Assembly: GCA_025153755.1 (NCBI GenBank)
Contig: JAOALD010000001.1
Location: forward strand, 806,001 to 870,000
Origin: SAR92 clade bacterium H921
Lineage (GTDB): Bacteria > Pseudomonadota > Gammaproteobacteria > Pseudomonadales > Porticoccaceae
DNA length: 64,000 nt
Direction: 5' to 3'
The stretch's first letter is position 1. Each line of letters opens with the position of its first letter. Position numbers and translations under genes: made by a program. Under the pieces are notes generated by a model. The model worked only from the letters and a program-made list of their open reading frames with translations. It was not told the origin of the DNA and ran no database searches. Of this stretch, positions 26,837-50,219 are shown in pieces.

Positions 26837-27505
26837 GTGGCAAACGATGTAAAAGCTAAAGAGACCAAACGACCAAAGCGCAATGAAAAAGGGTGGCAAG
26901 CTGAGAAAAGCGCCATGACGCGGTTGGCTATACTAGAGGCAACTATTAAGTGTCTTCTAGAGCTGGGATATGCCAATACGACGACGGCACTGATCGCCAA
27001 TTATGCCGGTGTTTCCCGTGGCGCTATGATGCACCATTTTCCGTCGCGCATGTCAGTGATGAGAGCGGTGGTCGATCACTTGCATCAACTGCGTCTGCAG
27101 GAGTATCTAGAGTTAATGGCTGACATTGATGATCCGCAGCGCAATCTGACTCATCAAGTCATTCGAGAGTCAGTAGAAGCCGCTTGGCAATATGTCAATC
27201 TGCCCTCATTTTTAGCGTATCAGGAGCTGCTGAGTGCCTCACGTACTGATGCAGAGTTGCGTCAGGTTATTGACCCAGTAGAAAAAGATTTCGAAAAACA
27301 GTTTCTCGATACGGCTAAAGCGGTGTTCCCTCACTGGCAGAATCTGGCAAGACTCGAAGGCGCTCATGATATGGTGCAGTTTTTGATGAAAGGTATGGCT
27401 CTGAGTCATATGTCTGTGCGTAAAAAAGCGCGAGCTAAACGAGTGATGACCTACCTGACGGCCATTTTGTATGATATTTACCAAGAGGCAAACTTGCTCG
27501 AATAG
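26837..27505 (+). CDS. TetR-family transcriptional regulator
   Basis: A 222-residue one-component repressor. The helix-turn-helix is clear: AILEATIKCLLELGYANTTTALIANYAGVSRGAMMHHFPSRMSVMRAV, about residues 31-77. A ligand-binding all-helical C-terminal domain follows. The N-terminus is unusually basic (KAKETKRPKRNEKGWQ). Start is GTG. It lies between the crotonase/ACAD pair and the large SDR-Rieske operon and probably controls one or both. Acyl-CoA thioesters or substrate-like hydrophobic ligands are typical inducers for such neighbours, but that is inference. Confidence 0.9.
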   Translation: MANDVKAKETKRPKRNEKGWQAEKSAMTRLAILEATIKCLLELGYANTTTALIANYAGVSRGAMMHHFPSRMSVMRAVVDHLHQLRLQEYLELMADIDDPQRNLTHQVIRESVEAAWQYVNLPSFLAYQELLSASRTDAELRQVIDPVEKDFEKQFLDTAKAVFPHWQNLARLEGAHDMVQFLMKGMALSHMSVRKKARAKRVMTYLTAILYDIYQEANLLE

Positions 27506-27850
27506 ATCCAAAGCGCCTAGTTTTCAAGGTCGAGTATGTTAGGTCTTGGCAATAAACGGCATTGCAGTGGGGCCGCAGCTTGTCCATTTTCAAAGGTTTT
27601 GTTTAAACACATTGAGTGTATTGTCTCGACCCGAGGCTACGCCCCATAACATCCCTCTTTCGACCACCCCGGTCAGCAAACCTAATCCTCATTTGCCCCC
27701 CCAGAATATTGCCGACAAAGATCTTGCAGGTCTTGTCGATTGGTAATATCATCCTTAAAATAAACATTCCTGTCTGTTTTATCATACTGCAGTAGATATA
27801 GTGGCAGCCAGAGCATAATAAAAATTATAGCTACACCAAGGGGAGCTCAA
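27506..27850. other. Promoter region of the SDR-Rieske operon
   Basis: 345 bases between the TetR gene and the ten-gene operon. A 66-codon frame at 27546-27746 has no RBS or recognisable protein features. AAACA (27762-27766) and TGTTT (27775-27779) form an inverted repeat with an 8-base spacer, possibly an operator. An exact promoter could not be placed. Confidence 0.5.
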
Positions 27851-28420
27851 ATGGGCCGTTTCGATGGCAAAGTCGTCTCTATTGTAGGCGCCGCAAGTGA
27901 CAATAATATGGTCGAGGTCATGGCTCGTCGCTTTGCCGCAGAGAGTGCGAAGGTTGTTGTTTCGGGGAGTCATAAGGAGACCCCTAGTTCTCTAGTCGAA
28001 GATATTGATGGCTCAATTATTCAGATCTCCTCAGCTACCGCCAATATCATGCTGGATGATCATGCCGCTTACATGGGCACCAAAGCAGGCACCGATCATC
28101 TTGTTCGCTGTGTGGCTAATCAATATGGCTCCAAAGGTATCCGTGCCAATAGTATTTCTCCCGGTTTGACCGCAACGCCTATGACCGCCGAACCCCTGAA
28201 GAGTGCAGCACTACTGGCTGAGTATGAAAGTTGCTACCCCCTTGTTCGCATCGGTACCAGTGAAGATGTTGCCGCTGCAGCTACATTCCTAGCTTCAGAC
28301 GAATGTTTTATGACTGGCGAAAATCTTCAAGTTAATGGTGGCCTGTGTCTGCATCGCAATCCCCTAGGTACTGAGTTAGTTGATGCCATGGTTTCGGCTG
28401 GTGAAATTCCCTCTGGATAG
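27851..28420 (+). CDS. SDR-family protein with internal deletion
   Basis: Only 189 residues, with both SDR ends but not the middle. The N-terminus GKVVSIVGAASDNN is a weak version of the cofactor motif. After about residue 50 it jumps to the segment around the catalytic YMGTK (Y74, K78), which lies near residue 151-157 in neighbours. The normal C-terminal part follows (NSISPGLTATPM, SDECFMTGENLQVNGG). The NAG motif and central strands are missing. The closest window relative by eye is the 255-residue SDR at 37448, which shares its odd C-terminal extension. The frame is open and the RBS good (GGGGAG), so it is translated, but normal SDR catalysis is doubtful. Confidence 0.75.
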   Translation: MGRFDGKVVSIVGAASDNNMVEVMARRFAAESAKVVVSGSHKETPSSLVEDIDGSIIQISSATANIMLDDHAAYMGTKAGTDHLVRCVANQYGSKGIRANSISPGLTATPMTAEPLKSAALLAEYESCYPLVRIGTSEDVAAAATFLASDECFMTGENLQVNGGLCLHRNPLGTELVDAMVSAGEIPSG

Positions 28421-28453
28421 GCGTAACTCGAAGAAGTTAATAAAGGACGTGAT

Positions 28454-29215
28454 ATGAAACTTGATAATAAGGTTGTTTTAATTACCGGTGCTGGCGGTGG
28501 TATTGGGCAGGCGGCAGTACGCAAATTTATTGACGAAGGTGCAAAAGTCATGATGGCCGACCTGACCACTGAAGATACTCAGCCGCTAGTCGATGACTTG
28601 GGTTCTGATCTCTGCGACTGTGTGGCGGTGGATGTCAGTCAAGACGATCAAGTTGCGAGCATGGTAAAGGCCTGTGTTGAGCGCTTTGGCGGAATTGATG
28701 TATTCGTTGCCAATGCCGGTGTAGAGGGTGAGATCGGTGACATTATGAGTACCGATGTTGCAAATCTGGACAAGGTACTTGCGGTCAATGTGCGCGGTGT
28801 TTGGCTGGGGCTTCATTATGTGATTCCGGTGATGCGCGATGGCGGCGGTGGCAGCATTATGATTACTTCCTCCGGTGCTGGAGTGCAGGGCTCACCCAAC
28901 ACTGCATGCTATAACGCGAGCAAACATGCAGTTATTGGACTGATGCGTTGTGCGGCGCTCGAGGTTGCTCCGTTCGGTATTCGTGTTAACACGGTAAATC
29001 CAGGGGCTGTTGAAACGCGAATGATGACCTCCATTGAGGACGGCTTTGCCGATGCAGGTGCCGGTGACTTTAGGGCTATGGTTGAAGCTGGAACGCCTTT
29101 GGGGCGCTACGGCCAGCCGGAAGAAATCGCTAATATGATGGTATTTCTCGGCAGCGATGATAGTAGCTACTGTACCGGTGGCGTCTATATGGTTGATGGC
29201 GGTAACTCCACCTGA
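28454..29215 (+). CDS. SDR family oxidoreductase
   Basis: Classical 253-residue SDR: TGAGGGIG near residue 12, VANAG near residue 87, serine in SSGAGVQGS, and catalytic Y153/K157 in YNASK. The C-terminal GGVYMVDGGNST is typical of 3-hydroxyacyl or cyclic alcohol dehydrogenases. An AAGGA ribosome site precedes the ATG. Second gene of the operon 27851-38215; substrate unknown. An aspartate after the second strand (MMADLT) suggests preference for NAD over NADP. Confidence 0.9.
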   Translation: MKLDNKVVLITGAGGGIGQAAVRKFIDEGAKVMMADLTTEDTQPLVDDLGSDLCDCVAVDVSQDDQVASMVKACVERFGGIDVFVANAGVEGEIGDIMSTDVANLDKVLAVNVRGVWLGLHYVIPVMRDGGGGSIMITSSGAGVQGSPNTACYNASKHAVIGLMRCAALEVAPFGIRVNTVNPGAVETRMMTSIEDGFADAGAGDFRAMVEAGTPLGRYGQPEEIANMMVFLGSDDSSYCTGGVYMVDGGNST

Positions 29216-29246
29216 GACTCTCATTAATAAACGGAATGAACGTTCT

Positions 29247-29996
29247 ATGACATTTGATTTTACAGATAAGGTAGTTCTCATCACTGGCGCGGGAGCCGGG
29301 TTAGGCAATGCCTGTGCACTGGCGTTTGCGGATGCTGGAGCCAAGCTAGTGATTACCGATATTTGTCAGCAGTCATTGGATAGGGCTGTGGTCGATCTTG
29401 CTAGCAGAGGCGCCGAGGTCTTGGGGCTAATCAATGATGCCAGTGATTGCGCCGATGTTAGCGCTATGCTCGACAGTATTATTGAGCGCTATGGGCGGCT
29501 AGATATTGCTGTTAATAATGCAGGTACGGCTACGCCATTGCAGGAATTTCATGAAGTCGGAGAAGCAGAGTTTGATCGTGTCATGGGGGTTAACCTGAAA
29601 GGTGTGTGGCTATGCATGCAAGCAGAGATTCGGCAGATGCTCAAGCAGGGAGGTGGTTGTATTGTCAATATGGCCTCTGCTACTAGCCGCAATACCTATC
29701 CCAATGCCTCGCCCTATGTCACCAGTAAGTTTGCAGTAGCTGGTTTGACTCGAACTGTAGCGGTGGAATATGCCGATCGAGATATCCGCATCAATGCAAT
29801 CTGTCCTGGCAATGTTGCTACTCCATTGGTCGTCAGTCTGGTTGAAGATCTGTCAGTGCTGGCGACCAAACATGCTATCAAGCGCCTTGGTACCCCCGAA
29901 GAGGTTGCCAATGGTGTGATGTTTTTAGCCTCGGATTTATCGTCTTTCAGCACTGGCAGTTTGCTCGAAGTCGATGGTGGCTGGAACGCCATATAA
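29247..29996 (+). CDS. SDR family oxidoreductase
   Basis: A 249-residue SDR with TGAGAGLG near residue 12, Asp after the second strand (ITDICQ, NAD-type), NNAGTATPL near residue 90 and catalytic Y157/K161 (YVTSK). The frame is open further upstream to 29157 inside the previous gene, but ATG 29247 fits the family start (MTFDFTDKVVLITGAG) and avoids the overlap. Third SDR of four in a row. Confidence 0.9.
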   Translation: MTFDFTDKVVLITGAGAGLGNACALAFADAGAKLVITDICQQSLDRAVVDLASRGAEVLGLINDASDCADVSAMLDSIIERYGRLDIAVNNAGTATPLQEFHEVGEAEFDRVMGVNLKGVWLCMQAEIRQMLKQGGGCIVNMASATSRNTYPNASPYVTSKFAVAGLTRTVAVEYADRDIRINAICPGNVATPLVVSLVEDLSVLATKHAIKRLGTPEEVANGVMFLASDLSSFSTGSLLEVDGGWNAI

Positions 29997-30030
29997 ACCC
30001 TAAATTTAAAATATACCAAGGAAAATTATT

Positions 30031-30792
30031 ATGTCTAGATTGTTAAACAAAGTGGCCATTATTACAGGTGCAGCGTCTAATCCAGGTTTGGGTCATGCCA
30101 CTGCAATTCGCTTTGCTCAAGAGGGAGCTAAATTGGTGATCACTGACATCGATATGGTGGGATTAGCCGCTGCTGAAAAAGAGCTAGTGGCTCTGGGCGC
30201 CGAGGTGTTGTCTATGGAGCAAAATGTTACCGACGAGGATCGCTGGCAGGAGGTAATCGACGCCACTGTTGAACGTTTTGGTGGTCTCGATGTGCTGGTA
30301 AACAATGCCGGTATCGCTGTGATGCGACCGATAAGCGAATACACAACCCAGGATTACGACCTGCAGATGGATGTCAATATCCGCAGCGTTTTCTTAGGCT
30401 GTAAAAAAGCATTACCAGCGATGATTGCGTCTGGCGGCGGTTCTATCGTCAACATGTCATCGGTCGCTGCCTTGCGTGGGATTCCTGGCGTGTCGGTTTA
30501 TGGTATTGCCAAGGCGGGCGTGCAAATCTTTAGTAAGAGCATTGCTCTGGAACATGCAGCAGATGGTATTCGTTGCAATTCCCTGCATCCAGGCTTAATT
30601 GATACCAATATCCAAAATGATTCAAGACGCGACAACCCTGATGAGTTTGAGAAGCTAGCTGACACTGTGCCGTTTGGGCGCATGGGCTATCCTGCAGAAG
30701 TTGCCAACTGTGTCTTATTTCTAGCCTCTGATGAGTCCAGTTATGTGACTGGCGCCGAACTGGTAGTTGATGGTGGTTTGATCTCTAAGTAA
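30031..30792 (+). CDS. SDR family oxidoreductase
   Basis: A 253-residue SDR: TGAASNPGLGHA (a two-residue longer cofactor loop), NNAGIAV near residue 90, catalytic Y157/K161 (YGIAK), and NSLHPGLIDTNI in place of the usual N-x-x-x-P-G context. AAGGA precedes the ATG. An Asp in ITDIDM suggests NAD use. Fourth gene of the operon, placed directly before the Rieske oxygenase, so it may oxidise a hydroxylated or diol product. Confidence 0.9.
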   Translation: MSRLLNKVAIITGAASNPGLGHATAIRFAQEGAKLVITDIDMVGLAAAEKELVALGAEVLSMEQNVTDEDRWQEVIDATVERFGGLDVLVNNAGIAVMRPISEYTTQDYDLQMDVNIRSVFLGCKKALPAMIASGGGSIVNMSSVAALRGIPGVSVYGIAKAGVQIFSKSIALEHAADGIRCNSLHPGLIDTNIQNDSRRDNPDEFEKLADTVPFGRMGYPAEVANCVLFLASDESSYVTGAELVVDGGLISK

Positions 30793-30888: not shown

Positions 30889-32232
30889 ATGAGTGCATCA
30901 TCTGAGACATCTCGTTACGCCAATGGATTTGATATCTCTTTGCGGGGGGATACCATCACACCGGATCGTTATATCTGTAAAGAGTTTATGGCCCGCGAAA
31001 ATGAGCACCTATGGCCAAAGATTTGGCATCTGGGCGGAATGGTCGCTGAGTTAGAGCAGGAAGGAGACTATGTCCGCCATAATTTGGGTGCCGAATCGGT
31101 GATCATGATTCGCCAAGCCGATAGTTCTATTAAGGCCTTCTATAATTCCTGTCCTCACCGCGGCAACCGTTTGGTACTAGGCGAGATTGGTGGCAGTGAA
31201 CGTATTACCTGCGGCTACCATGGCTGGCAGTTTTCTCCCGATGGCGTGCTAGTCAATGTTCAGGACCCAGATGATTTCCCCAATGGTAATCCCTGCGGCA
31301 AGGTGACTCTAACTGAGGTGCGTTGTGAAATCTGGGGGCCGTTTATTTTTTACTGTATGGATCAGGACGTCGCGCCACTACTGGACTGGCTGGCACCTCT
31401 GCCAGAGAGACTTAAAAGCTACGGCCTAGACAATTGGATTCGAGTGATGTACCTGACCGCTGATGCCGACTTTAATTGGAAAATCATCCGCGATAACTTT
31501 AACGAGAGTTATCACTTGCCAACCATTCATCCAGAGCTCTCCACTTTCATCAATGATGGTCTGTCGGATACATTATTTGAAATGTATGAAACTGGCCATA
31601 ACTCTATGTGGATGAAGGGCCATCAGGCCTCTACAAGAAATCCTGATTTTGAAACCGGAGAGGTGCCCGCGCCACTAGATGATGTTGCACGCGCCTGGGG
31701 TCTCAACCCAGAGGACTACCGCGGTCACACCAGTGACATTCGTGAGGCTATAGTGGCCGCCAAGCGTCGTATGGGGCCTGAAATGGGCTATACCAACTAC
31801 GAAAATATGAGTGACCAGCAGTTGGTAGACTATTTCCACTGCACGCTATTTCCCAATCTGACTATCACCATGTCGCCAGAACAGTGCCAGATTCTGCGTA
31901 CTGAACCTCATCCAACTGATCCACAAAAATGTGTATTTCATCACTGGGTATTGGCACCGCCGGTTGAGGGTATGAAAGAAGTAATTACACCTATTGGCCC
32001 CATGCCGTTGGAGTGGGCTGAGAATCGACACAGCGTTTACGGTGATGGACAGTCGGTTGGCTATGTCGCCGATCAGGATTTGAGTATAGGTACCAGCCAG
32101 CAGCAGGGGCTAAATTCTCGAGGCTTTAAAGGCTGTATTTTGACCCATCAAGAAAAGCGTGTGCAGAGATTTCATGAATTGCTCAATGATTATGTGAGTA
32201 CGGACACTATTAACACTGACCAACTTGGGTAA
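30889..32232 (+). CDS. Rieske non-haem iron oxygenase, alpha subunit
   Basis: A 447-residue oxygenase component that hydroxylates a hydrophobic substrate with O2. The Rieske [2Fe-2S] ligands are C88, H90, C108 and H111 (CPHRGNRL and CGYHGW). The mononuclear iron site is DNFNESYHLPTIH with H209 and H214. ATG 30889 has an AGAGA site upstream; the frame also opens at a TTG (30865). No beta subunit, ferredoxin or reductase gene is adjacent, so electrons must come from elsewhere, for example the ferredoxin at 61376. It overlaps nothing and is followed after 5 bases by the VOC gene. Confidence 0.92.
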   Translation: MSASSETSRYANGFDISLRGDTITPDRYICKEFMARENEHLWPKIWHLGGMVAELEQEGDYVRHNLGAESVIMIRQADSSIKAFYNSCPHRGNRLVLGEIGGSERITCGYHGWQFSPDGVLVNVQDPDDFPNGNPCGKVTLTEVRCEIWGPFIFYCMDQDVAPLLDWLAPLPERLKSYGLDNWIRVMYLTADADFNWKIIRDNFNESYHLPTIHPELSTFINDGLSDTLFEMYETGHNSMWMKGHQASTRNPDFETGEVPAPLDDVARAWGLNPEDYRGHTSDIREAIVAAKRRMGPEMGYTNYENMSDQQLVDYFHCTLFPNLTITMSPEQCQILRTEPHPTDPQKCVFHHWVLAPPVEGMKEVITPIGPMPLEWAENRHSVYGDGQSVGYVADQDLSIGTSQQQGLNSRGFKGCILTHQEKRVQRFHELLNDYVSTDTINTDQLG

Positions 32233-32237
32233 CTGAT

Positions 32238-32756
32238 ATGCTAAAAGCCAGTCTCGTTGGATTAGTTGTTGTTTGTTTATCTTCTCTGGTTGCGGCTGAA
32301 GGTGCCGAGTCAAAACCTAACCCTCTGAGCCTGATGCGTGCCGATCATATTATGATTTCAACGGATGATTATCGTGCAACTGTAGATTGGTATAACGCCG
32401 TGCTTGGCTTTGAAGTTGTCCGAGAATGGGATATCGATGGCTACCCTGATGTAGATGTGGGTTACATCTCTGCTAATGGTTTTATGATCGAAGTGGTTGC
32501 TACTAAAGAGGCATTTCAGGATGAAACAGTTGCCCCGGATGTGTTTACCGCTATGTCAGATCGTGGCTACGTGCATATTGCTTTTAGAAGTTCGGATGTA
32601 GATGCAGTGGCAGCAGAACTCATCAGCCGTGGAGTTGAATTGGAATTGCCGCCGACTAATTTTGACGCGGCTGGTGTTCGACTTCTGTTCATACGTGACA
32701 ACAATGGCAATCTTATTGAAATTGTTACTCCCCTCTCAACCTACAAGGAGTTGTGA
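32238..32756 (+). CDS. Exported VOC (glyoxalase-fold) protein
   Basis: A 172-residue single VOC module behind a cleavable-looking signal peptide (LVGLVVVCLSSLVAAEGA), so it should be periplasmic. The metal-site pattern is present: His in ADHIMIST near residue 36, a second likely ligand around RGYVHIAF, and the C-terminal Glu in GNLIEIVTP. Exported VOC proteins are uncommon; cytoplasmic relatives include glyoxalases, epimerases and extradiol dioxygenases. The stop overlaps the start of the lipoprotein gene by one base, so the two are translationally coupled. Confidence 0.85.
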   Translation: MLKASLVGLVVVCLSSLVAAEGAESKPNPLSLMRADHIMISTDDYRATVDWYNAVLGFEVVREWDIDGYPDVDVGYISANGFMIEVVATKEAFQDETVAPDVFTAMSDRGYVHIAFRSSDVDAVAAELISRGVELELPPTNFDAAGVRLLFIRDNNGNLIEIVTPLSTYKEL

Positions 32757-34507
32757 TGAAAAAGCTACCGAATTTTAATATTTTCTACCCTCTCGCACTA
32801 TTAGTAATTCTCGCCGGCATTGGCTGTTCGGAATCTGAGATTGCACCCTCGAAAATTGCGCTTACAGGCTCAGTATTTTCCGAAAAAGAGGGGGCTATGG
32901 AAGGGGTAGTGGTAATTGTTCAGGACGTGGGTGACACCGTGCTCACCGCGGTGACCAGCGACGCGGCCGGCCAGTTTCAATTCCATCGCGATCGGCTCAA
33001 GGCAGGGAAATATGAGATCAGTATAAGAGCAGCAGGCTATGAAATGCTGCAACCACGGACGGTAGTTGTCGACAAAATAACATTACAAAATCTGGGTCAG
33101 CTAAGTTTGGTTGCGGTCACTGAGCCTCTGCGCCTGGCATCTCAGTTGACCTCGTTGGACTGGGTTCAAAGTTTTCCAGGTTCCCAGGAAAAAAAAGATT
33201 TACTGGTTAAAAATATGGTCAACTGTGGTTTTTGTCACAGTCTAGAGCGAATCGCGCGATCTAGCTATACGGCAGAGGGGTTGGTGCAGGTAATACAGCG
33301 CATGCATACCTATGAAACTGACCATGCCTCTGCTGATCGCATTCAGGTGGTTTCAAAGCCGAAACCTATTGAAGGGTTGATTTGGTACGGACGCAAGGCC
33401 GCAGATATTGCTGAGTATTTGGCAACGGTTAATCTTAGTGGTGGTAAGTCGCAATGGGACTATCCATTGCAGACTCTACCGCGTCCCTCTGGTGAGGGCA
33501 CTAATGCCACAGTTACTGTCTTCCCAATTCCTCGTCAGCCCAGTGTGATTCATGATCTAGACGTGGATTCAAAAGGTAATGTTTGGTACGGCAATACCGG
33601 CTGGGATTTTATTGGCAAGCTAAATCCGCGCACTGGAGCATTTTCGGAGTGGCCATCACCCAATTTCCTGCCAGAGCCCGAAGAGGGTCTGATGCGCATT
33701 GTCGGGGTTCAGGATATTCAAGTCGATGAAACCGACACTGTCTGGGTCGCGGTCATGGGTAATAAGCATGCGTCCTTCAGCCCAGAGACTGAAACCTGGC
33801 AGACCTATGATTTACCGGTAATATGGAAAAATCCTTTCCTTGGTCCGGTGAGGGCTGGGGAAGATGGGCTCTGGGCTACGGGTATTACCTCGCCACCTGA
33901 TGGCCCTGTTCGCCATGAACATGCTTTTCGTTTTGATATTAAAACCGGCGAGCTAGGCAAAGGTATTATGCTGTTTGATGATAAGCCATTTCCTACGGAT
34001 CCCAATCGGGTCGGGCAACTAAACTACTGTTATATGATGGACCAGGATGCTGATGGTAATTTCCTTTGTACTGCCCCAGAAGCATCCTCCATAGCCCGCT
34101 CCGATAGTGAGGGCAATGTTCGCTTAGTGTCTACGCCAACCCCCAATGCCTATCCACGGCGAGGCTACAGAGATGACAATAATCATTTTTGGTTTACTGA
34201 GTTCTTTGCTGACAATGTCGCCTCTATCGATTTGGCTACTGATAAAATTACTGAATATCCCATCCAACCAAGATACATCTCACCCTATTACGCTCGGCCA
34301 GATCGCAGCGGCAAGATCTGGATATCCAGTACCGGTTCCGATCGCTTAATGCGACTGGATCCCGAGACCGGCGAGGTGGTCAAGTACCTGATGCCTGTGT
34401 CCTATGATGCGCGCAAAGTAGTTGTAGATAATAGTGCTGATCGTATTACTGTTTGGTTGCCAAATAAAAATCATGGGCAATTGATTCGGATCGAAGTTGC
34501 TGACTAA
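32756..34507 (+). CDS. Lipoprotein with Ig-like domain, c-type haem motif and Vgb-like propeller
   Basis: A 583-residue predicted lipoprotein (LAGIGCSES, lipid Cys24). Residues about 35-105 form a carboxypeptidase-regulatory-like beta domain (SVFSEKEGAMEGVVVIVQD). A haem c motif CGFCH follows (C157, C160, H161). From about residue 250 there are repeated propeller blades of the virginiamycin-B-lyase/streptogramin-lyase type (DLDVDSKGNVWYGN, GKIWISSTG). A redox or substrate-processing role in the periplasm is likely but unproven. ATG 32756 has AAGGAG 5 bases upstream and overlaps the VOC stop. Confidence 0.85.
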   Translation: MKKLPNFNIFYPLALLVILAGIGCSESEIAPSKIALTGSVFSEKEGAMEGVVVIVQDVGDTVLTAVTSDAAGQFQFHRDRLKAGKYEISIRAAGYEMLQPRTVVVDKITLQNLGQLSLVAVTEPLRLASQLTSLDWVQSFPGSQEKKDLLVKNMVNCGFCHSLERIARSSYTAEGLVQVIQRMHTYETDHASADRIQVVSKPKPIEGLIWYGRKAADIAEYLATVNLSGGKSQWDYPLQTLPRPSGEGTNATVTVFPIPRQPSVIHDLDVDSKGNVWYGNTGWDFIGKLNPRTGAFSEWPSPNFLPEPEEGLMRIVGVQDIQVDETDTVWVAVMGNKHASFSPETETWQTYDLPVIWKNPFLGPVRAGEDGLWATGITSPPDGPVRHEHAFRFDIKTGELGKGIMLFDDKPFPTDPNRVGQLNYCYMMDQDADGNFLCTAPEASSIARSDSEGNVRLVSTPTPNAYPRRGYRDDNNHFWFTEFFADNVASIDLATDKITEYPIQPRYISPYYARPDRSGKIWISSTGSDRLMRLDPETGEVVKYLMPVSYDARKVVVDNSADRITVWLPNKNHGQLIRIEVAD

Positions 34508-34531
34508 AAAATTTAACTTTTGGAAATGATA

Positions 34532-36391
34532 ATGACAAAGCATATTTACACCTCACTACTAGGCTCAATAGCAATTTGTCTGAGCCTGTCAACGAACGGC
34601 ACCGATGCATTATCGACAGAGCAGAAACTGCTTTATTCCACGCCGGTGAGAGAGAGTATAACCAATCTCTACTGGGGGGATTTACATCTGCATTCGCAGC
34701 TTTCTGCTGATGCTTATATTATGCATACCCGCTTGACCAAGGATCAGGCTTTTAAGTTTGCCCGTGGGCAAATGGTAGAAGCAGATAATGGTATGCCAGC
34801 GCGACTACGTCGCCCGTTAGATTTTTTAGCCGTCACAGATCATGCGGAGTATCTGGGCATCTATGCGCAATTAGCAGTCAACGACCCGCGACTGCATAAA
34901 TGGAAGATGGGCATGGAATGGCAGGCCCTGATGAAACAGGGAGATACTAGAAGCCTGGCGCGAGCTTTCGCCGATGCGATTCAAATCAGCGAGGAACAAT
35001 ATTTAACGCCCGACAGTCTCCGCAGATCAATCTGGTCGGAAGCTTCGGCAGTGGCAGATAAATACAATGAACCGGGCCTGTTTACAGCTTTCGTGGGCTA
35101 TGAATGGACCTCTATGATTACCGGTGACAATCTACATCGGGTGGTTATCTACAAGGACGGCGCAGAGCTTGCTTCTCAGCACACTCCGTTTTCAGCTCAG
35201 CATAGCAATGATCCGGAGGATTTATGGGACGCCCTTGCAGACTATGAAAAGCAAACCGGGGGAGAGGTGATCGCTATTGCCCATAATGGCAATGTCAGCA
35301 ATGGACGTATGTTCTCGCCCAATCGGGAAAATGGATTGCCGCTAGATGAGTCCTATGCCCGCAAGCGGGCGCGCTGGGAGCCTGTCTATGAAACTACCCA
35401 AATCAAGGGGGATGGCGAGGCTCATCCGTTTCTGTCTCCCACAGATGAGTTTGCCGATTTTGAGACCTGGGATGAGGGTAACATTACTCTCGATACGCCT
35501 AAACAACCAGAGATGTTGCAGTATGAATACAGTCGCTCGGGACTCCGTGAGGGCCTAAGACATGAGGCCAATTTGGGTGCCAATCCGTTTAAATTTGGCC
35601 TGATTGGTAGCACTGATTCCCACACTGGTATGGCCACCACCTATGAGGACAATTTTTTCGGCAAGTTTGCCCATGATGAACCCTCGGTCGATCGCACAGA
35701 AAAACGTATGGCTGGTCAATTACAGAAGATTTGGCAGCTGGTGTCATCTGGCCTAACTGCCGCCTGGTCTGAAGAAAACACTCGGGAGTCGATTTTTGAA
35801 GCGATCAAGCGACGGGAGGTATATGCAACATCTGGGACTCGCATTCGGCTTCGCTTCTTCGGCGGCTGGGAGTTCACGCAGGCCGATGTGATGGACGCCG
35901 ACTTTGCCAGTATTGGTTATCGCAAAGGTGTGCCCATGGGAGGTGATTTAACTCGCAGTGAAAGCGCAGCACCAACCTTTATGGTAGCTGCGTCTAGAGA
36001 TCCAGATGGAGCTAACCTTGATCGTGTGCAAATTATTAAGGGCTGGCTCAATGCTAGTGGCGAGACCGAAGAAAAAATATTTGATGTAGCGCTGTCAGAT
36101 GGCCGCACAGCTAACTGGCTGACGGGAGATATTCCTGCAGTGGGAAATACCGTAGATGAGGAGAACGTCACCTATAGTAATAGTATCGGAGATGCAGAAC
36201 TGGCGGTAGTATGGACTGATCCAGAATTCGACCCAGAACAGCGAGCATTCTATTATGTAAGAGTTATTCAAATTCCTACGCCGCGCTGGACTGCCTATGA
36301 CGCCAAATATTTTGGTTCGGTTATAGACCCTCGCGCACCTAAGACGATCCAGGATCGCGCCTATTCATCTCCAATTTGGTATACCCCATGA
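34532..36391 (+). CDS. Exported DUF3604 protein (PHP-like metal hydrolase fold)
   Basis: A 619-residue protein with a signal peptide (TSLLGSIAICLSLS). DUF3604 features include YWGDLHLHSQLSADA and the long tail with REVYATSGTRIRLRFFGGWEF. The metal-binding pattern of the PHP superfamily is visible: HxH (H52, H54), TDH (H104), AHN (H251) and TDSH (H364). A phosphoesterase or other metal-dependent hydrolase activity is therefore plausible, though DUF3604 has no agreed function. ATG 34532 is preferred (GGAA 6 bases upstream) over the in-frame TTG 34520. Its stop overlaps the MDR gene by four bases. Confidence 0.88.
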   Translation: MTKHIYTSLLGSIAICLSLSTNGTDALSTEQKLLYSTPVRESITNLYWGDLHLHSQLSADAYIMHTRLTKDQAFKFARGQMVEADNGMPARLRRPLDFLAVTDHAEYLGIYAQLAVNDPRLHKWKMGMEWQALMKQGDTRSLARAFADAIQISEEQYLTPDSLRRSIWSEASAVADKYNEPGLFTAFVGYEWTSMITGDNLHRVVIYKDGAELASQHTPFSAQHSNDPEDLWDALADYEKQTGGEVIAIAHNGNVSNGRMFSPNRENGLPLDESYARKRARWEPVYETTQIKGDGEAHPFLSPTDEFADFETWDEGNITLDTPKQPEMLQYEYSRSGLREGLRHEANLGANPFKFGLIGSTDSHTGMATTYEDNFFGKFAHDEPSVDRTEKRMAGQLQKIWQLVSSGLTAAWSEENTRESIFEAIKRREVYATSGTRIRLRFFGGWEFTQADVMDADFASIGYRKGVPMGGDLTRSESAAPTFMVAASRDPDGANLDRVQIIKGWLNASGETEEKIFDVALSDGRTANWLTGDIPAVGNTVDEENVTYSNSIGDAELAVVWTDPEFDPEQRAFYYVRVIQIPTPRWTAYDAKYFGSVIDPRAPKTIQDRAYSSPIWYTP

Positions 36392-37401
36392 CAGCATTGA
36401 GTAACAGAAAGTGGACACTAGCTTCCAGACCTGAAACCACGGTAAGTGAAGAAAACTTTACCCTTGAAGTCGAGACCGTACGAGATTTGGCTGAAGGTGA
36501 GTTTCTGGTCAAGAATCACTATCTCGCCTTTGAGCCGGCACAGCGCGGTTGGCTCAATGATGTTCGCAGCTATTTACCTCCGGTAGCTATTGGTGAGGTT
36601 ATGCGGTCTGGTGCCGTCGGCGAGGTTATCGCCAGCAAACATAGTGATTTTGCCTTGGGTGATTTTGTACAGGGGACCTTTGGATGGCAGGAATATGCTA
36701 TTAGTGATGGTGCAGGGCTCTATCCGGTCACCAAAATAAATGCTGGCACACCTATTTCGTATCCTCTCCATATCTATGGTCTAACCGGCCTGACGGCGTA
36801 TTTTGGCTTTTTGGAAATTGGACGACCCAAGGCAGGAGACACGGTATTAGTGTCTGGTGCTGCGGGTGCCACAGGCTCCACTGTTGGGCAGATGGCCAAG
36901 CTTATGGGCTGTAAAGTGATCGGTATCGCTGGAGGTCAGGCTAAGTGTCAGTGGCTTATCGATGAACTGGGTTATGACGCTGTGATTGACTATAAATCGG
37001 AATCTGTCGCCGACAGATTACAAGAATTGTGCAACAACAGTGTCGATATATTTTTCGATAATGTGGGTGGTCCAATTCTCGATGAGGCGCTGGTCAATAT
37101 GGTCAACAATGGCCGCATTGTGCTGTGCGGAGGGATATCCAGTGGTTATCAGGTTAAAGAATTGCCACCTGGCCCAAAAAATTATATGCAATTAGTGATT
37201 CGCCGCTGCACGATGGAAGGCTTTATTGTGTTGGATTATGTGGAGCGCTACCCAGAGGCGAGAGAGCAGCTGCAGCAGTGGGTTGATGAGGGAAAGATCC
37301 TGGTAAAGGAACATGTTCTAGAGGGCATTGAACAATGCCCATCCGCCCTTGCCGGCCTTTTTGCCGGTCAAAATTTTGGCAAGCAACTGGTCAAAATATA
37401 A
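36388..37401 (+). CDS. Zinc-free MDR NADP-dependent oxidoreductase (PTGR/CurA-like)
   Basis: A 337-residue medium-chain reductase without zinc ligands, of the group that reduces alkenal/enone double bonds with NADPH. Visible are RGWLNDVRSYLPPVAIGEVMRSG near residue 55, GLTAYFGF, the Rossmann GAAGATGSTVGQ near residue 155 and the C-terminal GQNFGKQLVKI. The ATG overlaps the DUF3604 stop (ATGA). It is one of four paralogues in the window (also 51237, 55486, 60355), all sharing this N-terminal pattern. Confidence 0.9.
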   Translation: MTALSNRKWTLASRPETTVSEENFTLEVETVRDLAEGEFLVKNHYLAFEPAQRGWLNDVRSYLPPVAIGEVMRSGAVGEVIASKHSDFALGDFVQGTFGWQEYAISDGAGLYPVTKINAGTPISYPLHIYGLTGLTAYFGFLEIGRPKAGDTVLVSGAAGATGSTVGQMAKLMGCKVIGIAGGQAKCQWLIDELGYDAVIDYKSESVADRLQELCNNSVDIFFDNVGGPILDEALVNMVNNGRIVLCGGISSGYQVKELPPGPKNYMQLVIRRCTMEGFIVLDYVERYPEAREQLQQWVDEGKILVKEHVLEGIEQCPSALAGLFAGQNFGKQLVKI

Positions 37402-37447: not shown

Positions 37448-38215
37448 ATGGCTGGTAGATTGGAAGGTAAGATAATTATAATCTTGGGTGCGTCCGATGA
37501 GCGTAGCATGGGAGCTGCAACGGCCCGTCTTTGTCATGCACAGGGCGCCAAGTTGGTATTGGCTGCGCGCAGACTTGATAAGGTGCAGGCGGTGGCGGAC
37601 AGCTTAGGTGCGCACGCAATGAGTTGCGATATTACTGATGAACAGCAGCTAGCGGCGCTGGCGGATGCCGCAGTGTCTGAGTACGGTAAACTAGATGGCG
37701 CGATTAATTTTGCAGGTATTGAAACCTCATCTCCCATTGCCGATATTAGTCGCGAGGTATTACAGGAAAACTGTGATGTGCACTTAATTGGTACAACGTT
37801 ATTTATCAAGCATATGACTGCGCGTATGAGTGATGGTGGCTCGGTAGTTACAACCTCCTCCCAGACGGCTCAACTAGCACCTCCAGGCCTTGCTGCCTAT
37901 GCCGGCACCAAGAGTGGGGCAGACCATATAGTTCGCATAGCGGCGGTAGAATACGGTGCGCAGAATATTAGGGTTAACTCCCTGGCACCGGGCTTTACTC
38001 CTAGTGCGATGACTGAAGGCTTTCTTAGCATACCTAATATTGAACAGGCGTTTATCAAGGAGATTCCTATGGGTAGGCTGCCCTCCACTGATGATATGGC
38101 CAATGCAGCACTTTGGCTACTGTCGGATGAGTCATTTATGACTGGCAGAATATTAGATATTTCCGGGGGCCAAACATTGCGCCGTATTCCCACGGCTACG
38201 GAGATGGGATTCTGA
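37448..38215 (+). CDS. SDR family oxidoreductase (divergent cofactor motif)
   Basis: A 255-residue SDR. The cofactor loop reads LGASDERSMGAA rather than TGxxxGIG, and NAG is replaced by NFAGIE. Catalytic Y151/K155 (YAGTK) are intact. The C-terminal tail (SDESFMTGRILDISGGQTLRRIPTATEMGF) is shared with the deleted SDR at 27851, so the two are a pair at either end of the operon. AGGAAGAG precedes the ATG. It is the last gene before a strong terminator. Confidence 0.88.
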   Translation: MAGRLEGKIIIILGASDERSMGAATARLCHAQGAKLVLAARRLDKVQAVADSLGAHAMSCDITDEQQLAALADAAVSEYGKLDGAINFAGIETSSPIADISREVLQENCDVHLIGTTLFIKHMTARMSDGGSVVTTSSQTAQLAPPGLAAYAGTKSGADHIVRIAAVEYGAQNIRVNSLAPGFTPSAMTEGFLSIPNIEQAFIKEIPMGRLPSTDDMANAALWLLSDESFMTGRILDISGGQTLRRIPTATEMGF

Positions 38216-38369: not shown

Positions 38370-40595
38370 TTAGAACTCATATCCTACAGTTACACCCATC
38401 TGGCGACGGGGAACCAGCTCTGCCCAAGCGAATGAACCAGCATCATATCTGCGGCCAACTCGGTTGCCATCTTCCAGCACATCGGTGCCGTACACTCGAA
38501 GTTTGAGTGTTCCGTTAGACAACTCTTTCATAAACGTGGCAGATATATCCAGAGTTTCAAAGCTTTCAATTGTTACTTCTGGCCCAGTTACAGGATCATA
38601 GGTAGACCAATCAGCCTGAGTCTCTACTTCATCTTTATGACTGAAGCCAACATTGATAGTCAATGTTCCGCCAGCGCGATCAGAGGTATGCTCTGCACCC
38701 AGATAAGCAGTTAGGTCTGGGGCGTACAAAAGACGCGCTTTGTCAGAGATATCAACACCGTTGTAGTTATACTCATCGTAGTCCGCATCAAGCGTGCCAA
38801 ATGAAGCGCGAAGGGTAAGCGCGTCTGTAGGCATGTATGTGCCTTCAAACTCGATGCCGCTCATAGATACTTCACCGGCATTACGCACAAAGGAGCAGGT
38901 CACACTACCTGCGTCGTTTTGCTCTTTGTCACAGTCTGCATCTGACGCTGGAACAATCACGGTAGTTTGCTTATCGGTGTACTCAGAATTAAAGTAAGTA
39001 ATATTAATTTGCGAGTTATCTGTTGGATTACTGCGCATGCCTAGTTCAATACTGGCTACTTCTTCGGACTTGAAGGGCAGATTTTCTAATGGTGTAATGC
39101 CTCGGTTGAAGAAACCACCACTGCGATAACCTGTTGAGTAAGACGCATAAACCATCCCTGTCTCGATCTCACGTTGTAGCACCACACGGAATGAGGTGTT
39201 GTTATCTTTGAAGGTAGGGTTAGCCGAATTTAGTAGATCGGCAGCTACGTAGCTATTTGCCAGTCGTGCGGCATTACCTGAAACCATTGGGTAGGAACGG
39301 GTATCTAGCTCTTTCTCTTCTTCAGTGTAGCGAGCACCAAGAGTGAATGACCAGAGGTCATTGATTTCATAGCTCATTTCACCAAACACTGCGGTGCTAT
39401 CTAAGTAATGTAATGCGGTGAAGTTCTGGATTGGTCCTGAGGTGATATAGGAGTCAGCTTCCATACTGTAGAGGCCAGCAACAAAGTTCATTGGGCCGTC
39501 AAGGTCAGAAGTCAACTGCAGTTCGTGTGAGGTTTGCTTAAAGTTTTGATCACGATCAACTGGGAAAAACACACCGCCCAGAACATCTGGTCCAAGACCC
39601 CAAGACGCTTCACGAACTACTTCATCATAATCCATGATTCCCATAATGTACTTGATTTGGAAGTTGTCAGTATCGTGAGTCACTTTAAGAGTCGTGTTCT
39701 CACCCTCCAAGGTGGCAGTCAGAGGGAGAAACTGAGGAGAGGTCTTCCAGTCATTTGCTTCTGAATTAATAGCACCCTGATTACCTAATGCCTCGAAACC
39801 AACAAAAACATTATCTGGAGCAGTGGTGTTGTGGTCATAATCATCAAAAGTAAGCACTGCAGATGTGTTCTCGGAGAAGTTATATTTTACAGCGATGCTC
39901 ATAGTCTCTGAATCTTTCATTGAGCGGCGAGCATTCAATGAAGTGTTGTAAACATGGGAGTCGGACTCTAGGCTTTTAAATGAGAGCTTGATGCCGCCGT
40001 TATCACCCAGAGGCATATTGATAACCCCTTTGATATCAGTCATGTCTTCATCGCCGGCTGTAGCCTCTAACTTCGCACCGAACTCACCGGTTGGCTCTGT
40101 TCTTTGAACGCTGATAACACCACCAATAGTGTTGCGACCGAAAAGTGTGCCCTGAGGGCCACGAAGAACTTCAACGGAATCTACATCGAAAAGATCAAAG
40201 ACGCCGCCTGAGTTACTGGCCAGAAACACACCATCAATAGCAACACCGACGGTCGGCTCGATTGACTTTTCGATATCGTCGTAGCTCATACCACGGATTG
40301 AGGCACTTAGTGACTCAGAACCGATCGCGGTTTCATGGAGTTCCACATTAGGTACCATTTTACCTAACTCAAGGGAGCTAGTAATTGAGCCGCGCTCTAG
40401 CTGCCCTGGGCTCAGTGCCGATACAGCAACGGGTACGTCTTGAATCGATTCTTGACGTTTTCGAGCGGTAACCACAACTTCTTCGAGACTTGCGGACTCT
40501 TGTTGAGCAATCGCGCCTCCTGCGTACAGGGGCAGGATGCTGAGCGAAATTACTGCTGGAAGTAGCTGTTTTTTATATTTATTTTGAAATTTCAT
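38370..40595 (-). CDS. TonB-dependent outer-membrane receptor
   Basis: A 741-residue outer-membrane transporter. A signal peptide (about 1-30, ending AGGAIAQ) precedes a TonB-box-like ASLEEVVVTARKR and the plug domain with IQDVPVAVSALS, SIRGMSYDD and VEVLRGPQGTLFGRNTIGG (about 130-150). The 22-strand barrel ends in aromatic Phe (GVTVGYEF). The plug style is that of the large receptor class used by marine and sphingomonad catabolic clusters, not a clear siderophore or B12 type. It is divergent from the acyl-CoA ligase over 321 bases and likely imports the substrate of this island. Confidence 0.93.
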   Translation of the reverse strand: MKFQNKYKKQLLPAVISLSILPLYAGGAIAQQESASLEEVVVTARKRQESIQDVPVAVSALSPGQLERGSITSSLELGKMVPNVELHETAIGSESLSASIRGMSYDDIEKSIEPTVGVAIDGVFLASNSGGVFDLFDVDSVEVLRGPQGTLFGRNTIGGVISVQRTEPTGEFGAKLEATAGDEDMTDIKGVINMPLGDNGGIKLSFKSLESDSHVYNTSLNARRSMKDSETMSIAVKYNFSENTSAVLTFDDYDHNTTAPDNVFVGFEALGNQGAINSEANDWKTSPQFLPLTATLEGENTTLKVTHDTDNFQIKYIMGIMDYDEVVREASWGLGPDVLGGVFFPVDRDQNFKQTSHELQLTSDLDGPMNFVAGLYSMEADSYITSGPIQNFTALHYLDSTAVFGEMSYEINDLWSFTLGARYTEEEKELDTRSYPMVSGNAARLANSYVAADLLNSANPTFKDNNTSFRVVLQREIETGMVYASYSTGYRSGGFFNRGITPLENLPFKSEEVASIELGMRSNPTDNSQINITYFNSEYTDKQTTVIVPASDADCDKEQNDAGSVTCSFVRNAGEVSMSGIEFEGTYMPTDALTLRASFGTLDADYDEYNYNGVDISDKARLLYAPDLTAYLGAEHTSDRAGGTLTINVGFSHKDEVETQADWSTYDPVTGPEVTIESFETLDISATFMKELSNGTLKLRVYGTDVLEDGNRVGRRYDAGSFAWAELVPRRQMGVTVGYEF

Positions 40596-47876: not shown

Positions 47877-48683
47877 TTATTTTACTGCGGCGCGAGCCTT
47901 AGCCATGGCATCAGCGGTTGCCTTGTCCATTGGCTCAATCGCCCACTTAATTCCTCTGCGCAGCAATTCATAGAATACCGGCAGTTCCCATGAGCCTCGA
48001 TCCAAAGTTGGCCAGTAGTCAAGCATCGGTTGCATATCATGATGGTGACGACAGTGGCCCAGTGTCAGATAGAGAACCTCGCCTTCACCCACTTTATGGG
48101 TATAGAACACCGGGTGACGGGCATGTTCCCATTCATCTTCTTCAAACCCCTCTGCCTTGCCGCCGTACTCGGTATCCAGAATCACATGGAGATCGCCATA
48201 GGTCTTCATAAGGTAAAGTTCATCTTCAGAATCGAAGGGTTCAATGCCCTTAGCGAGAGGGTGGTCTGGATCGGCCACAGAGACCTTGTAAGGCGCGATC
48301 GGTGGATGAGAGCGGAACATTGAGCCAAGAGTTTCTACGAACAATGGCGCCCAGTCTGGTGTGCCGTAAACTCCACTCGACATAAGCCTAATAATTGAAT
48401 TGGTGCCGTGCAATGCATACCAGCGGCCCCCTCTTTCGACCCAAGCTTTTAAGGCTTCCTGAGCGCCAAGTGAGGGTATAACATTGCAGGTGTAGCTAAC
48501 AATAAAGTCAGCTTCTTCAAGGGCGTCAAGATTTTCATAGTCTTCAAATACTCGCACTCGAAAGCGCTCGTCCTCTGATAGTAATTTCAGTAATTCAAGG
48601 CGCGCATGGTCAATATCATGCCAGACTCCTCCAGCAATCAGTAAGCAATTGATTCTACCCGCGCGGTTATCATGAATACTCAT
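47877..48683 (-). CDS. ThuA-like domain protein
   Basis: A 268-residue protein of the ThuA family, a class I glutamine-amidotransferase-like fold of uncertain chemistry. Typical blocks are LLIAGGVWHDIDHARLELL at the N-terminus, WVERGGRWYALHGTN near residue 85, and the late GEGEVLYLTLGHCRHHHD. It lacks a signal peptide. Its ATG overlaps the stop of the Rieske oxygenase gene by four bases, so the two are translationally coupled. ThuA-type proteins are usually linked to sugar metabolism; here the setting is different. Confidence 0.85.
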   Translation of the reverse strand: MSIHDNRAGRINCLLIAGGVWHDIDHARLELLKLLSEDERFRVRVFEDYENLDALEEADFIVSYTCNVIPSLGAQEALKAWVERGGRWYALHGTNSIIRLMSSGVYGTPDWAPLFVETLGSMFRSHPPIAPYKVSVADPDHPLAKGIEPFDSEDELYLMKTYGDLHVILDTEYGGKAEGFEEDEWEHARHPVFYTHKVGEGEVLYLTLGHCRHHHDMQPMLDYWPTLDRGSWELPVFYELLRRGIKWAIEPMDKATADAMAKARAAVK

Positions 48684-49876
48684 AAAATATCCTTTTTTCT
48701 ATCGAGTTCTGGTTTGGGGGCAGATGGATTCTGTGTTAGATACCATTCAACCCATTTGTGGAACAGTTGATTGCCGGCTTCATTGCGACCGAAGGTAACA
48801 TTGGCATGGGCATTAGATTCTAGGCCTTTCTGAATTTTCAGCCCTACCTGATAGTCTTCGACATCTACTACTTCTTGGAAAAAGTCCATCATACCTTGCA
48901 GTTCGGTATCCTCTCCGTCCGGCACGGTCGGGTGGACAAAGTTGATATAGGTGGTGTTTTGATTTGGCAATGGACCAGGAATAATCTGACTGATTAATGT
49001 AATTTCTGGAGCCACAAACAACGATATATTAGGGAACAGTGTTCGTATCCAATCGTAACCGTTATTTTCATGTTTGTGATAATCCTCTGGCGCCACGTCG
49101 GCAAGATTCTCTTTAATGGCAAGATGAGGAAAGCAGATCAATGTATGGGGACCATAGGCATCAAACTGCATTATGTTGGAGTAAGTGCGCTCTGCAATAG
49201 TGTCCGGGTGTGCTGCCGCAAAATGATAGCCCTCCAGATAACCGTCATAGGCAACTTTCCAGTTGGCGCCATCGATCTTACGCTGACCACAGAAATGCCA
49301 GTTTTCCATACCCAGACGACCAATATCCTCCATCACGCCGCCTAAGAAGCCATCAAAATCTACTTCCTCTTCACCGGGTTCAAGAACCGTAAAGATCATT
49401 CCTCCCCGCTCGTAAACAGGGAGTTGGGTCAAGCCATTAGTCTGCTTGTCGAAGTCGCCAAATTTTTCCTGATCAGCGACGCCGCGCAGCACTCCATCAT
49501 TGCTATACATCCAGCCGTGATAGGGGCAGGTAAAGCGCGACTTATTGCCGCAAGGTTCGGTAGCTATTGTCATAGCACGATGAGAACAGGCATTAAGCAT
49601 TACTCGGGCGGTGCCATCTTTCAGCCGTGTGATTAGCAAAGGCTTGTCGAGAAATTGGAATGTCTTGTAGTCACCAGGGTTTGGCAGTTCCTGAGTTAGA
49701 GCTACAAATACCGGAACCTTTTTAAAAATTAGGTCCATTTCCTGTTGCCAAATATCAGCATCAGTATAGTTTTTTGATGGCACAGACAATGTTCCATCGG
49801 CCTGGTCTGTGGTGCCATTATCGACGTCATCAATTATGCGGGCGACAATGCGATTATAGTTCTCTGCAATAGTCAT
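48680..49876 (-). CDS. Rieske non-haem iron oxygenase, alpha subunit
   Basis: A 398-residue oxygenase. Rieske ligands are C97 and H99 (CSHRAMTI) and C117 and H120 (CPYHGW). The iron site is DGYLEGYHFAAAHPD with two histidines. The reading frame runs upstream to 49960 through the end of the ABM gene, but the ATG giving MTIAENYNRIV is the natural start and avoids that overlap. It is shorter than the other two window paralogues and differs in Rieske sequence. The operon order is ABM, Rieske, ThuA. Confidence 0.91.
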   Translation of the reverse strand: MTIAENYNRIVARIIDDVDNGTTDQADGTLSVPSKNYTDADIWQQEMDLIFKKVPVFVALTQELPNPGDYKTFQFLDKPLLITRLKDGTARVMLNACSHRAMTIATEPCGNKSRFTCPYHGWMYSNDGVLRGVADQEKFGDFDKQTNGLTQLPVYERGGMIFTVLEPGEEEVDFDGFLGGVMEDIGRLGMENWHFCGQRKIDGANWKVAYDGYLEGYHFAAAHPDTIAERTYSNIMQFDAYGPHTLICFPHLAIKENLADVAPEDYHKHENNGYDWIRTLFPNISLFVAPEITLISQIIPGPLPNQNTTYINFVHPTVPDGEDTELQGMMDFFQEVVDVEDYQVGLKIQKGLESNAHANVTFGRNEAGNQLFHKWVEWYLTQNPSAPKPELDRKKDIL

Positions 49877-49904
49877 GCTGTGTATTCCTCGACTGTTTCG
49901 GGAC

Positions 49905-50219
49905 TTAGCTTTCAGGAAGTACCAGCGGTCCAGCCGCTGACACATCGTATCTAACCACATTCATGTCAGTGATCTCGACGGTCTCACAAAATGCTAGAAA
50001 CTCAACAATAAGAGGCATAGCTAAATGAGCCATCAAAGCGCTCTCGTTCTCCCATTGCTCTGTGACCCAGATAACATTGGGATAATTTATATCTTGAGCG
50101 AAGGCATAGAGCTGGCAGCCCGGCTCATCGTGAGTTGGGCCGATAATTTTTTGAGCGGCAGCCACATAGGCTGCAATATCTTTGGACGCTAGTTCAATTC
50201 TTGCAGAGATAGCTAACAT
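49905..50219 (-). CDS. ABM-fold (antibiotic biosynthesis monooxygenase-like) protein
   Basis: A 104-residue ferredoxin-like barrel protein. Signature features are ISARIELASKD, DEPGCQLYAFAQD near residue 35, and VTEQWENESALMAHL. Such proteins dimerise and include cofactor-free monooxygenases, isomerases and haem enzymes, so the activity is open. It lies 28 bases before the Rieske gene. Its closest window relative is at 54541, sharing GCxxY, the ExWE motif and the following LxAHL. Confidence 0.83.
   Translation of the reverse strand: MLAISARIELASKDIAAYVAAAQKIIGPTHDEPGCQLYAFAQDINYPNVIWVTEQWENESALMAHLAMPLIVEFLAFCETVEITDMNVVRYDVSAAGPLVLPES

Follow-up and report, generated by a model that had tools for sequence, protein, structure and literature searches.

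A DUF3604 gene and an exported VOC gene jointly linked to a Rieske oxygenase gene in a SAR92 clade genome, with an optional c-haem propeller gene

Does the catabolic pathway encoded around a Rieske oxygenase gene of SAR92 clade bacterium H921 begin outside the cytoplasm? The question is raised by a 64-kb stretch of its 2.57 Mb genome (contig JAOALD010000001.1, our C1, positions 806,001 to 870,000; hereafter the window), where a co-directional run on the + strand encodes a Rieske oxygenase, a VOC-superfamily protein, a haem-propeller protein, a DUF3604 protein, an MDR reductase and an SDR oxidoreductase, with reading frames open from the Rieske to the MDR gene. A preliminary description had taken the VOC, propeller and DUF3604 genes as an extracytoplasmic module locked to the Rieske gene, the products of which might oxidise, cleave or isomerise the substrate in the periplasm. 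Its observations were for the most part right, and its interpretation is plausible in outline and partly supported: an early step of the pathway probably takes place outside the cytoplasm. The composition of the module has to be revised, as described below.

We surveyed 112 genomes of the family, taking as Rieske orthologues those with at least 80% identity (the gene of G014, split over two contigs, was counted once). The orthologue is present in 16 of these genomes, at 17 loci. VOC was found in 15 genomes, at 16 loci, all with the Rieske orthologue, the family yielding no further match at E <= 1e-30; DUF3604 orthologues of at least 74% identity occupy the same 15 genomes and 16 loci. Both genes adjoin the Rieske orthologue at 16 of the 17 loci and both are absent from the 17th (G050). 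The propeller gene is present at six loci. The order Rieske-VOC-propeller-DUF3604 is seen at five of them (G000, G012, G031, G038 and G044), and 11 loci have Rieske, VOC and DUF3604 but lack the propeller gene (G028, G036, G013, G033 twice, G037, G051, G052, G057, G014 and G034). Since VOC and DUF3604 are present or absent jointly and the propeller gene occurs at few loci, the linked pair is VOC plus DUF3604, with the propeller as an optional member. Thus, the lock to the Rieske gene stands for the pair and falls for the propeller, and a fixed VOC-propeller-DUF3604 module was rejected given those 11 loci. The arrangement is not widely conserved either, no VOC match at E <= 1e-22 being found outside the genus among 390 genomes of the order. 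In one genome, G033, the Rieske-VOC-DUF3604 cluster is present twice (L039, L040).

The distribution of the propeller gene is scattered. On six gene trees its presence requires three to five changes, a number as low in 35 to 338 of 500 label shuffles, and the well-supported branches alone force only one to three. Because its slot within the genus is always the same, the gene was more probably lost several times than gained several times. In wider sets, the gene was found in seven of the 112 family genomes (the seventh, G005, being of another genus), in 5 of 390 genomes of the order (E <= 1e-40) and in 1 of 398 genomes of the phylum, namely this one (E <= 1e-30). A pattern scan of an 84,980-species collection, sensitive to close relatives alone, returned 13 propeller loci, and no relative was found on plasmids at E <= 1e-20. 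At two sphingomonad loci (L015, L023), the propeller gene is flanked by homologues of a second Rieske oxygenase (48680-49960, -) and of the P450 (46608-47807, +) of the window.

We then asked which products carry export signals, using a simple hand-made measure (not SignalP), the best 10-residue hydropathy near the N-terminus averaged over alignment rows. Means were 2.61 for VOC (16 rows, 1.95-2.96, with a hydrophobic N-terminus in all 16), 2.63 for the propeller protein (5 rows) and 2.39 for DUF3604 (16 rows, 1.38-2.86; several starts, e.g. L038, L039, L047 and L049, are over-extended by the open-reading-frame rule, and single rows fall to 1.38 there). These values resemble that of the exported control, a TonB receptor (2.25, 12 rows), and lie above those of Rieske (0.22, 16 rows), MDR (0.31, 13 rows) and two SDRs (1.38, 14 rows; 1.70, 11 rows), consistent with three successive products bearing export signals, as originally described. 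The lipobox of the propeller protein, judged by eye, is weak in all five genus rows of alignment A1, with no clear one in the other eight; a distant relative, L058, has a lipobox.

The DUF3604 protein belongs to PF12228 (Table 1), and the HxH (54/56), TDH (105/106), AHN (253/254) and TDSH (364/366) motifs noted earlier are all present. Residues Y49, G51, H54, H56, D105, H106, E193, H204, H253, N254, D364 and H366 are invariant in nine of nine sequences, which are 36-85% identical to the window protein and include four paralogues at 36-45%. The likeness to PHP proteins was also borne out, as distant homology to the exported PHP-type hydrolases CehA and McbA. All nine sequences match the CehA/McbA model (NF038032) at E <= 5 (best 7.9e-7, window protein 1.3e-5). 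Comparison of profiles by hhalign (18 DUF3604 against 21 CehA/McbA-type sequences, one of which, L081, was cut at the wrong place) gave E 1.2e-7 over residues 414-617, in the C-terminal part; selected sub-ranges gave 6.4e-7 (residues 40-130) and 9.8e-6 (40-410), in colinear order. Each E-value is for a single comparison. Homology thus covers the metal-motif regions, and the middle of the protein has no reliable alignment. These results support, without proving, the assignment of DUF3604 as a metal hydrolase of PHP type. Plasmid records with relatives numbered 77, none reaching 60% identity (E <= 1e-40), and 36 pattern matches on viral contigs contained none. Elsewhere in this genome (L103, L105; G000:C1), DUF3604 recurs in a trio with a PPIC-type peptidyl-prolyl isomerase (PPIase) and HupE/UreJ, which is also found on a Rhizobium and a Sinorhizobium plasmid (L108, L109) and is absent from a third plasmid examined. 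HupE/UreJ is a Ni/Co-type permease family, and such a neighbour may hint at the metal of DUF3604.

The VOC protein is a member of PF00903 in which H37, E85, H113 and E161 are invariant in six of six sequences, including one relative of 26% identity. Extradiol dioxygenases of the VOC kind have three metal ligands; the H-E-H-E pattern would therefore fit the glyoxalase I or epimerase type and not the dioxygenase type. The protein falls under the cut-offs of all 12 NCBIfam models listed, the nearest being glyoxalase and epimerase models. Relatives occur in 31 plasmid records at E <= 1e-8, with about 32% identity in the eight listed. Separately, a Parahaliea locus (L018:8040-11716) has the order Rieske-VOC-propeller with a Rieske protein of 28% and a VOC protein of 26-28% identity, the latter without an export signal; on these identities it is a similar arrangement built of unlike parts.

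The propeller protein combines three domains. The part initially described as Ig-like is CarboxypepD_reg (35.0 bits, cut-off 32.3); it is followed by a helical domain with the CxxCH motif (CGFCH) and by a Vgb-family propeller (PF24684, Vgb_lyase, 68.4 bits, cut-off 50). In 15 distinct sequences (17 rows, the window and one genome appearing twice), down to about 29% identity, C157, C160, H161, M183, H266, D267, R468, R469 and Y511 are invariant, and H190 is kept in 14. The genome also encodes a haem-attachment protein (TIGR00353, listed as nrfE, 774 bits against a cut-off of 569), presumably of the CcmF/NrfE family; together with CxxCH in all 15 sequences, this fits a c-type cytochrome. Being invariant, M183 is a better candidate than H190 for the second haem ligand, in a region where the structural model is weak. 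Thus, the haem residues, like the metal residues of DUF3604 and VOC, proved to be conserved. The predicted structure (mean pLDDT 74, pTM 0.72, pLDDT under 50 at residues 155-162) has its best PDB matches in Vgb (2z2o, 2z2n and 2qc5; E 4.5e-19, TM 0.84-0.87 on the target). Family and fold might suggest a Vgb-type lyase opening a cyclic ester. Catalysis by VgbB involves histidine and glutamate residues, and both histidines and the glutamate are replaced here: in the best-scoring of three blade registers, the register itself being ambiguous, R468 stands at the ARPHA motif and S509-P510-Y511 at the AEPHG motif of solved VgbB. With R468 and Y511 at these histidine motifs, the protein is unlikely to work by Vgb-like lyase chemistry; such an activity was rejected for it, and we regard a ring-opening lyase as the least probable of the explanations weighed here by a wide margin.

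Building on the gene linkage, the conserved residues and the family membership or distant homology seen here, we propose a location, reactions, an order of steps and a substrate class. A compound would enter through the TonB receptor, and periplasmic DUF3604, as a PHP-type enzyme, would cleave an ester-like bond (carboxyl-, carbamate- or phosphoester). The exported VOC protein, with a four-ligand metal site, would act in the same sequence of steps, for example through isomerisation of, or elimination from, the compound that is released. Where present, the haem-propeller protein might serve as an accessory electron-transfer protein or oxidoreductase, not as a Vgb-type lyase. The product would then cross to the cytoplasm for the Rieske, SDR, MDR, CoA-ligase and acyl-CoA dehydrogenase steps. 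We judge the chances of this scheme to be about even. In its favour are the joint linkage of VOC and DUF3604 to the Rieske gene, the DUF3604 metal residues and CehA/McbA homology, the N-terminal signals, the gene for haem attachment, and the TonB receptor, CoA ligase and dehydrogenase genes that adjoin the cluster. A stricter version, in which DUF3604 (as PHP hydrolase) and VOC (as metal isomerase or lyase) are obligate partners in two periplasmic steps that ready the TonB-imported compound for the cytoplasmic Rieske enzyme, the propeller being an optional oxidative branch, is more doubtful. To our knowledge, it would be the first role assigned to DUF3604, and likewise the first periplasmic VOC enzyme put to such a use. 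A steroid or terpenoid was considered as substrate, and no evidence supported either.

Several observations weigh against periplasmic hydrolysis by DUF3604 together with VOC. The window DUF3604 protein scores far under the CehA/McbA cut-off (24.8 against 80 bits) and is not a member of that family; no solved relative was found at E <= 1; and its structure prediction, for which five close sequences were usable, reached pLDDT 33, so that the metal site was not seen in three dimensions. Co-inheritance of the pair is confined to one genus and partly reflects relatedness. G050 keeps Rieske, MDR and their neighbours without VOC and DUF3604, with a propeller gene in two pieces. The gap between the Rieske and propeller genes of G050 holds a candidate VOC relic (L021:9760-9858; tblastn E about 0.67). 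It is only suggestive: 2 of 1000 mononucleotide shuffles and 1 of 423 other windows reach its best local score of 50. Finally, the other DUF3604 loci of this genome have no VOC or close Rieske homologue alongside, and so family membership by itself leaves the reaction undecided. Another view is that DUF3604 and VOC perform general envelope work, such as phosphoester turnover or aldehyde detoxification, and sit in the operon for regulation only. The family is indeed large, with five full-length copies and divergent ones in this genome and other contexts such as PPIase-HupE/UreJ, and the models nearest to VOC are those of glyoxalase and epimerase; against this, VOC is found within the family only with this Rieske gene and the pair is missing jointly from G050, and we consider general envelope work unlikely. 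Unlikely to a like degree is that all three exported products form one functional module, the haem protein oxidising or isomerising the substrate before uptake. The four-gene order at five genus loci, the invariant propeller residues and the presence of pathway homologues (at least 40% identity, in fetched flanks) near the propeller gene at six of eight loci outside the genus (L016 and L017 being the two that lack them) argue for it. Its absence from most Rieske loci argues against it, as does DUF3604, found in the fetched stretch of none of those eight loci and, in G005, as a 64% identical protein about 70 kb from the propeller gene. At two distant propeller loci, L095 and L096, no pathway homologues of at least 40% identity were found nearby.

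The cluster (Table 1) lies in an apparent catabolic island from 24.3 to about 57 kb holding a crotonase, acyl-CoA dehydrogenases, TetR, many SDRs, two Rieske oxygenases, a P450, three CurA-like MDRs, a CoA ligase, the TonB receptor and an esterase. A receptor homologue (at least 60% identity) adjoins the cluster at 12 other loci. Gene overlaps of 1-4 bases, previously ascribed to the VOC, propeller and MDR genes, are seen for VOC/propeller (4 or 1 base by choice of start) and DUF3604/MDR (4 bases); 5 bases separate Rieske from VOC, and 18 or 24, by start, separate propeller from DUF3604. At eight other loci VOC would overlap Rieske by 1 or 4 bases, taking the first possible start. Among the upstream SDR genes, that at 27851-28420 has an in-frame loss of 77 residues (54-130) relative to the 266-residue orthologue of HTCC2207, and is probably non-functional or an assembly fault.

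Table 1. Genes in and around the Rieske-VOC-DUF3604 cluster (window positions)
Feature	Position	Strand	Remarks
TetR regulator and four SDR genes upstream	26837..30792	+	order largely kept elsewhere; some loci lack one or another of the SDRs
Rieske non-haem iron oxygenase, alpha subunit	30889..32232	+	PF00848 142 bits, PF00355 56 bits; no export signal
Exported VOC-superfamily metalloprotein	32238..32756	+	PF00903 66.3 bits (cut-off 20.6); ligand set H37 E85 H113 E161
Exported CarboxypepD_reg + c-type haem (CGFCH) + Vgb-fold propeller protein, possible lipoprotein, optional member	32753..34507 (GTG 32753 or ATG 32756)	+	
Exported DUF3604 protein, PHP/CehA-like predicted metallohydrolase	34526..36391 (ATG 34526 or 34532)	+	PF12228 824.8 bits (cut-off 20.4)
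MDR reductase, curcumin-reductase/PTGR-like	36388..37401	+	NF058644 363 bits, under the 440 cut-off
SDR oxidoreductase after MDR	37448..38215	+	PF13561 200 bits
TonB-dependent receptor, presumed outer-membrane substrate entry	38370..40595	-	PF00593 104.7 bits, PF07715 56.2 bits
CoA ligase, two acyl-CoA dehydrogenases (PimC/PimD-like), two SDRs, P450	40917..47807	+	likely cytoplasmic rest of the pathway

DUF3604 is widespread yet nearly unmentioned in the literature searched, where the name occurs in a single paper, PF12228 in none, and no function was found; its link to one Rieske and one VOC gene provides a concrete genetic setting. Searches for an exported VOC enzyme, for a cytochrome-plus-Vgb protein and for a SAR92 pathway of this kind likewise returned nothing fitting. 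The closest named relatives found were Porticoccaceae metagenome-assembled genomes and the isolate HTCC2207, which we take to be a SAR92 member, in line with literature listings. As this cultured strain (L022) also has the cluster, its function could be tested.

How does the cluster compare with known systems? The propeller protein shares family and fold with virginiamycin B lyase (Vgb), and differs in its additional CarboxypepD_reg and c-haem domains and in the replaced histidines. The VOC protein shares superfamily and the four-residue H-E-H-E pattern with glyoxalase I and methylmalonyl-CoA epimerase, but scores 33.9 of 120 and 34.4 of 114.95 bits, respectively, is a member of neither, and bears an export signal. 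The closest parallel is CehA/McbA. According to PMC8292978, CehA-type enzymes have signal peptides, and in Pseudomonas C5pp the carbaryl hydrolase McbA resides in the periplasm and the ring is hydroxylated in the cytoplasm. On that account, periplasmic hydrolysis before cytoplasmic ring oxygenation has a precedent, and an extracytoplasmic first stage is not, as had been supposed, undescribed. The window DUF3604 protein resembles CehA/McbA (PHP-type, NF038032) in its distant homology over the N- and C-terminal parts, its HxH, DH and DxH motifs, its export signal and its place beside ring-hydroxylating catabolism. It differs from them in its Pfam family, DUF3604, and in its partner VOC gene. If our scheme is true, periplasmic first-step catabolism would extend beyond carbamate pesticides.

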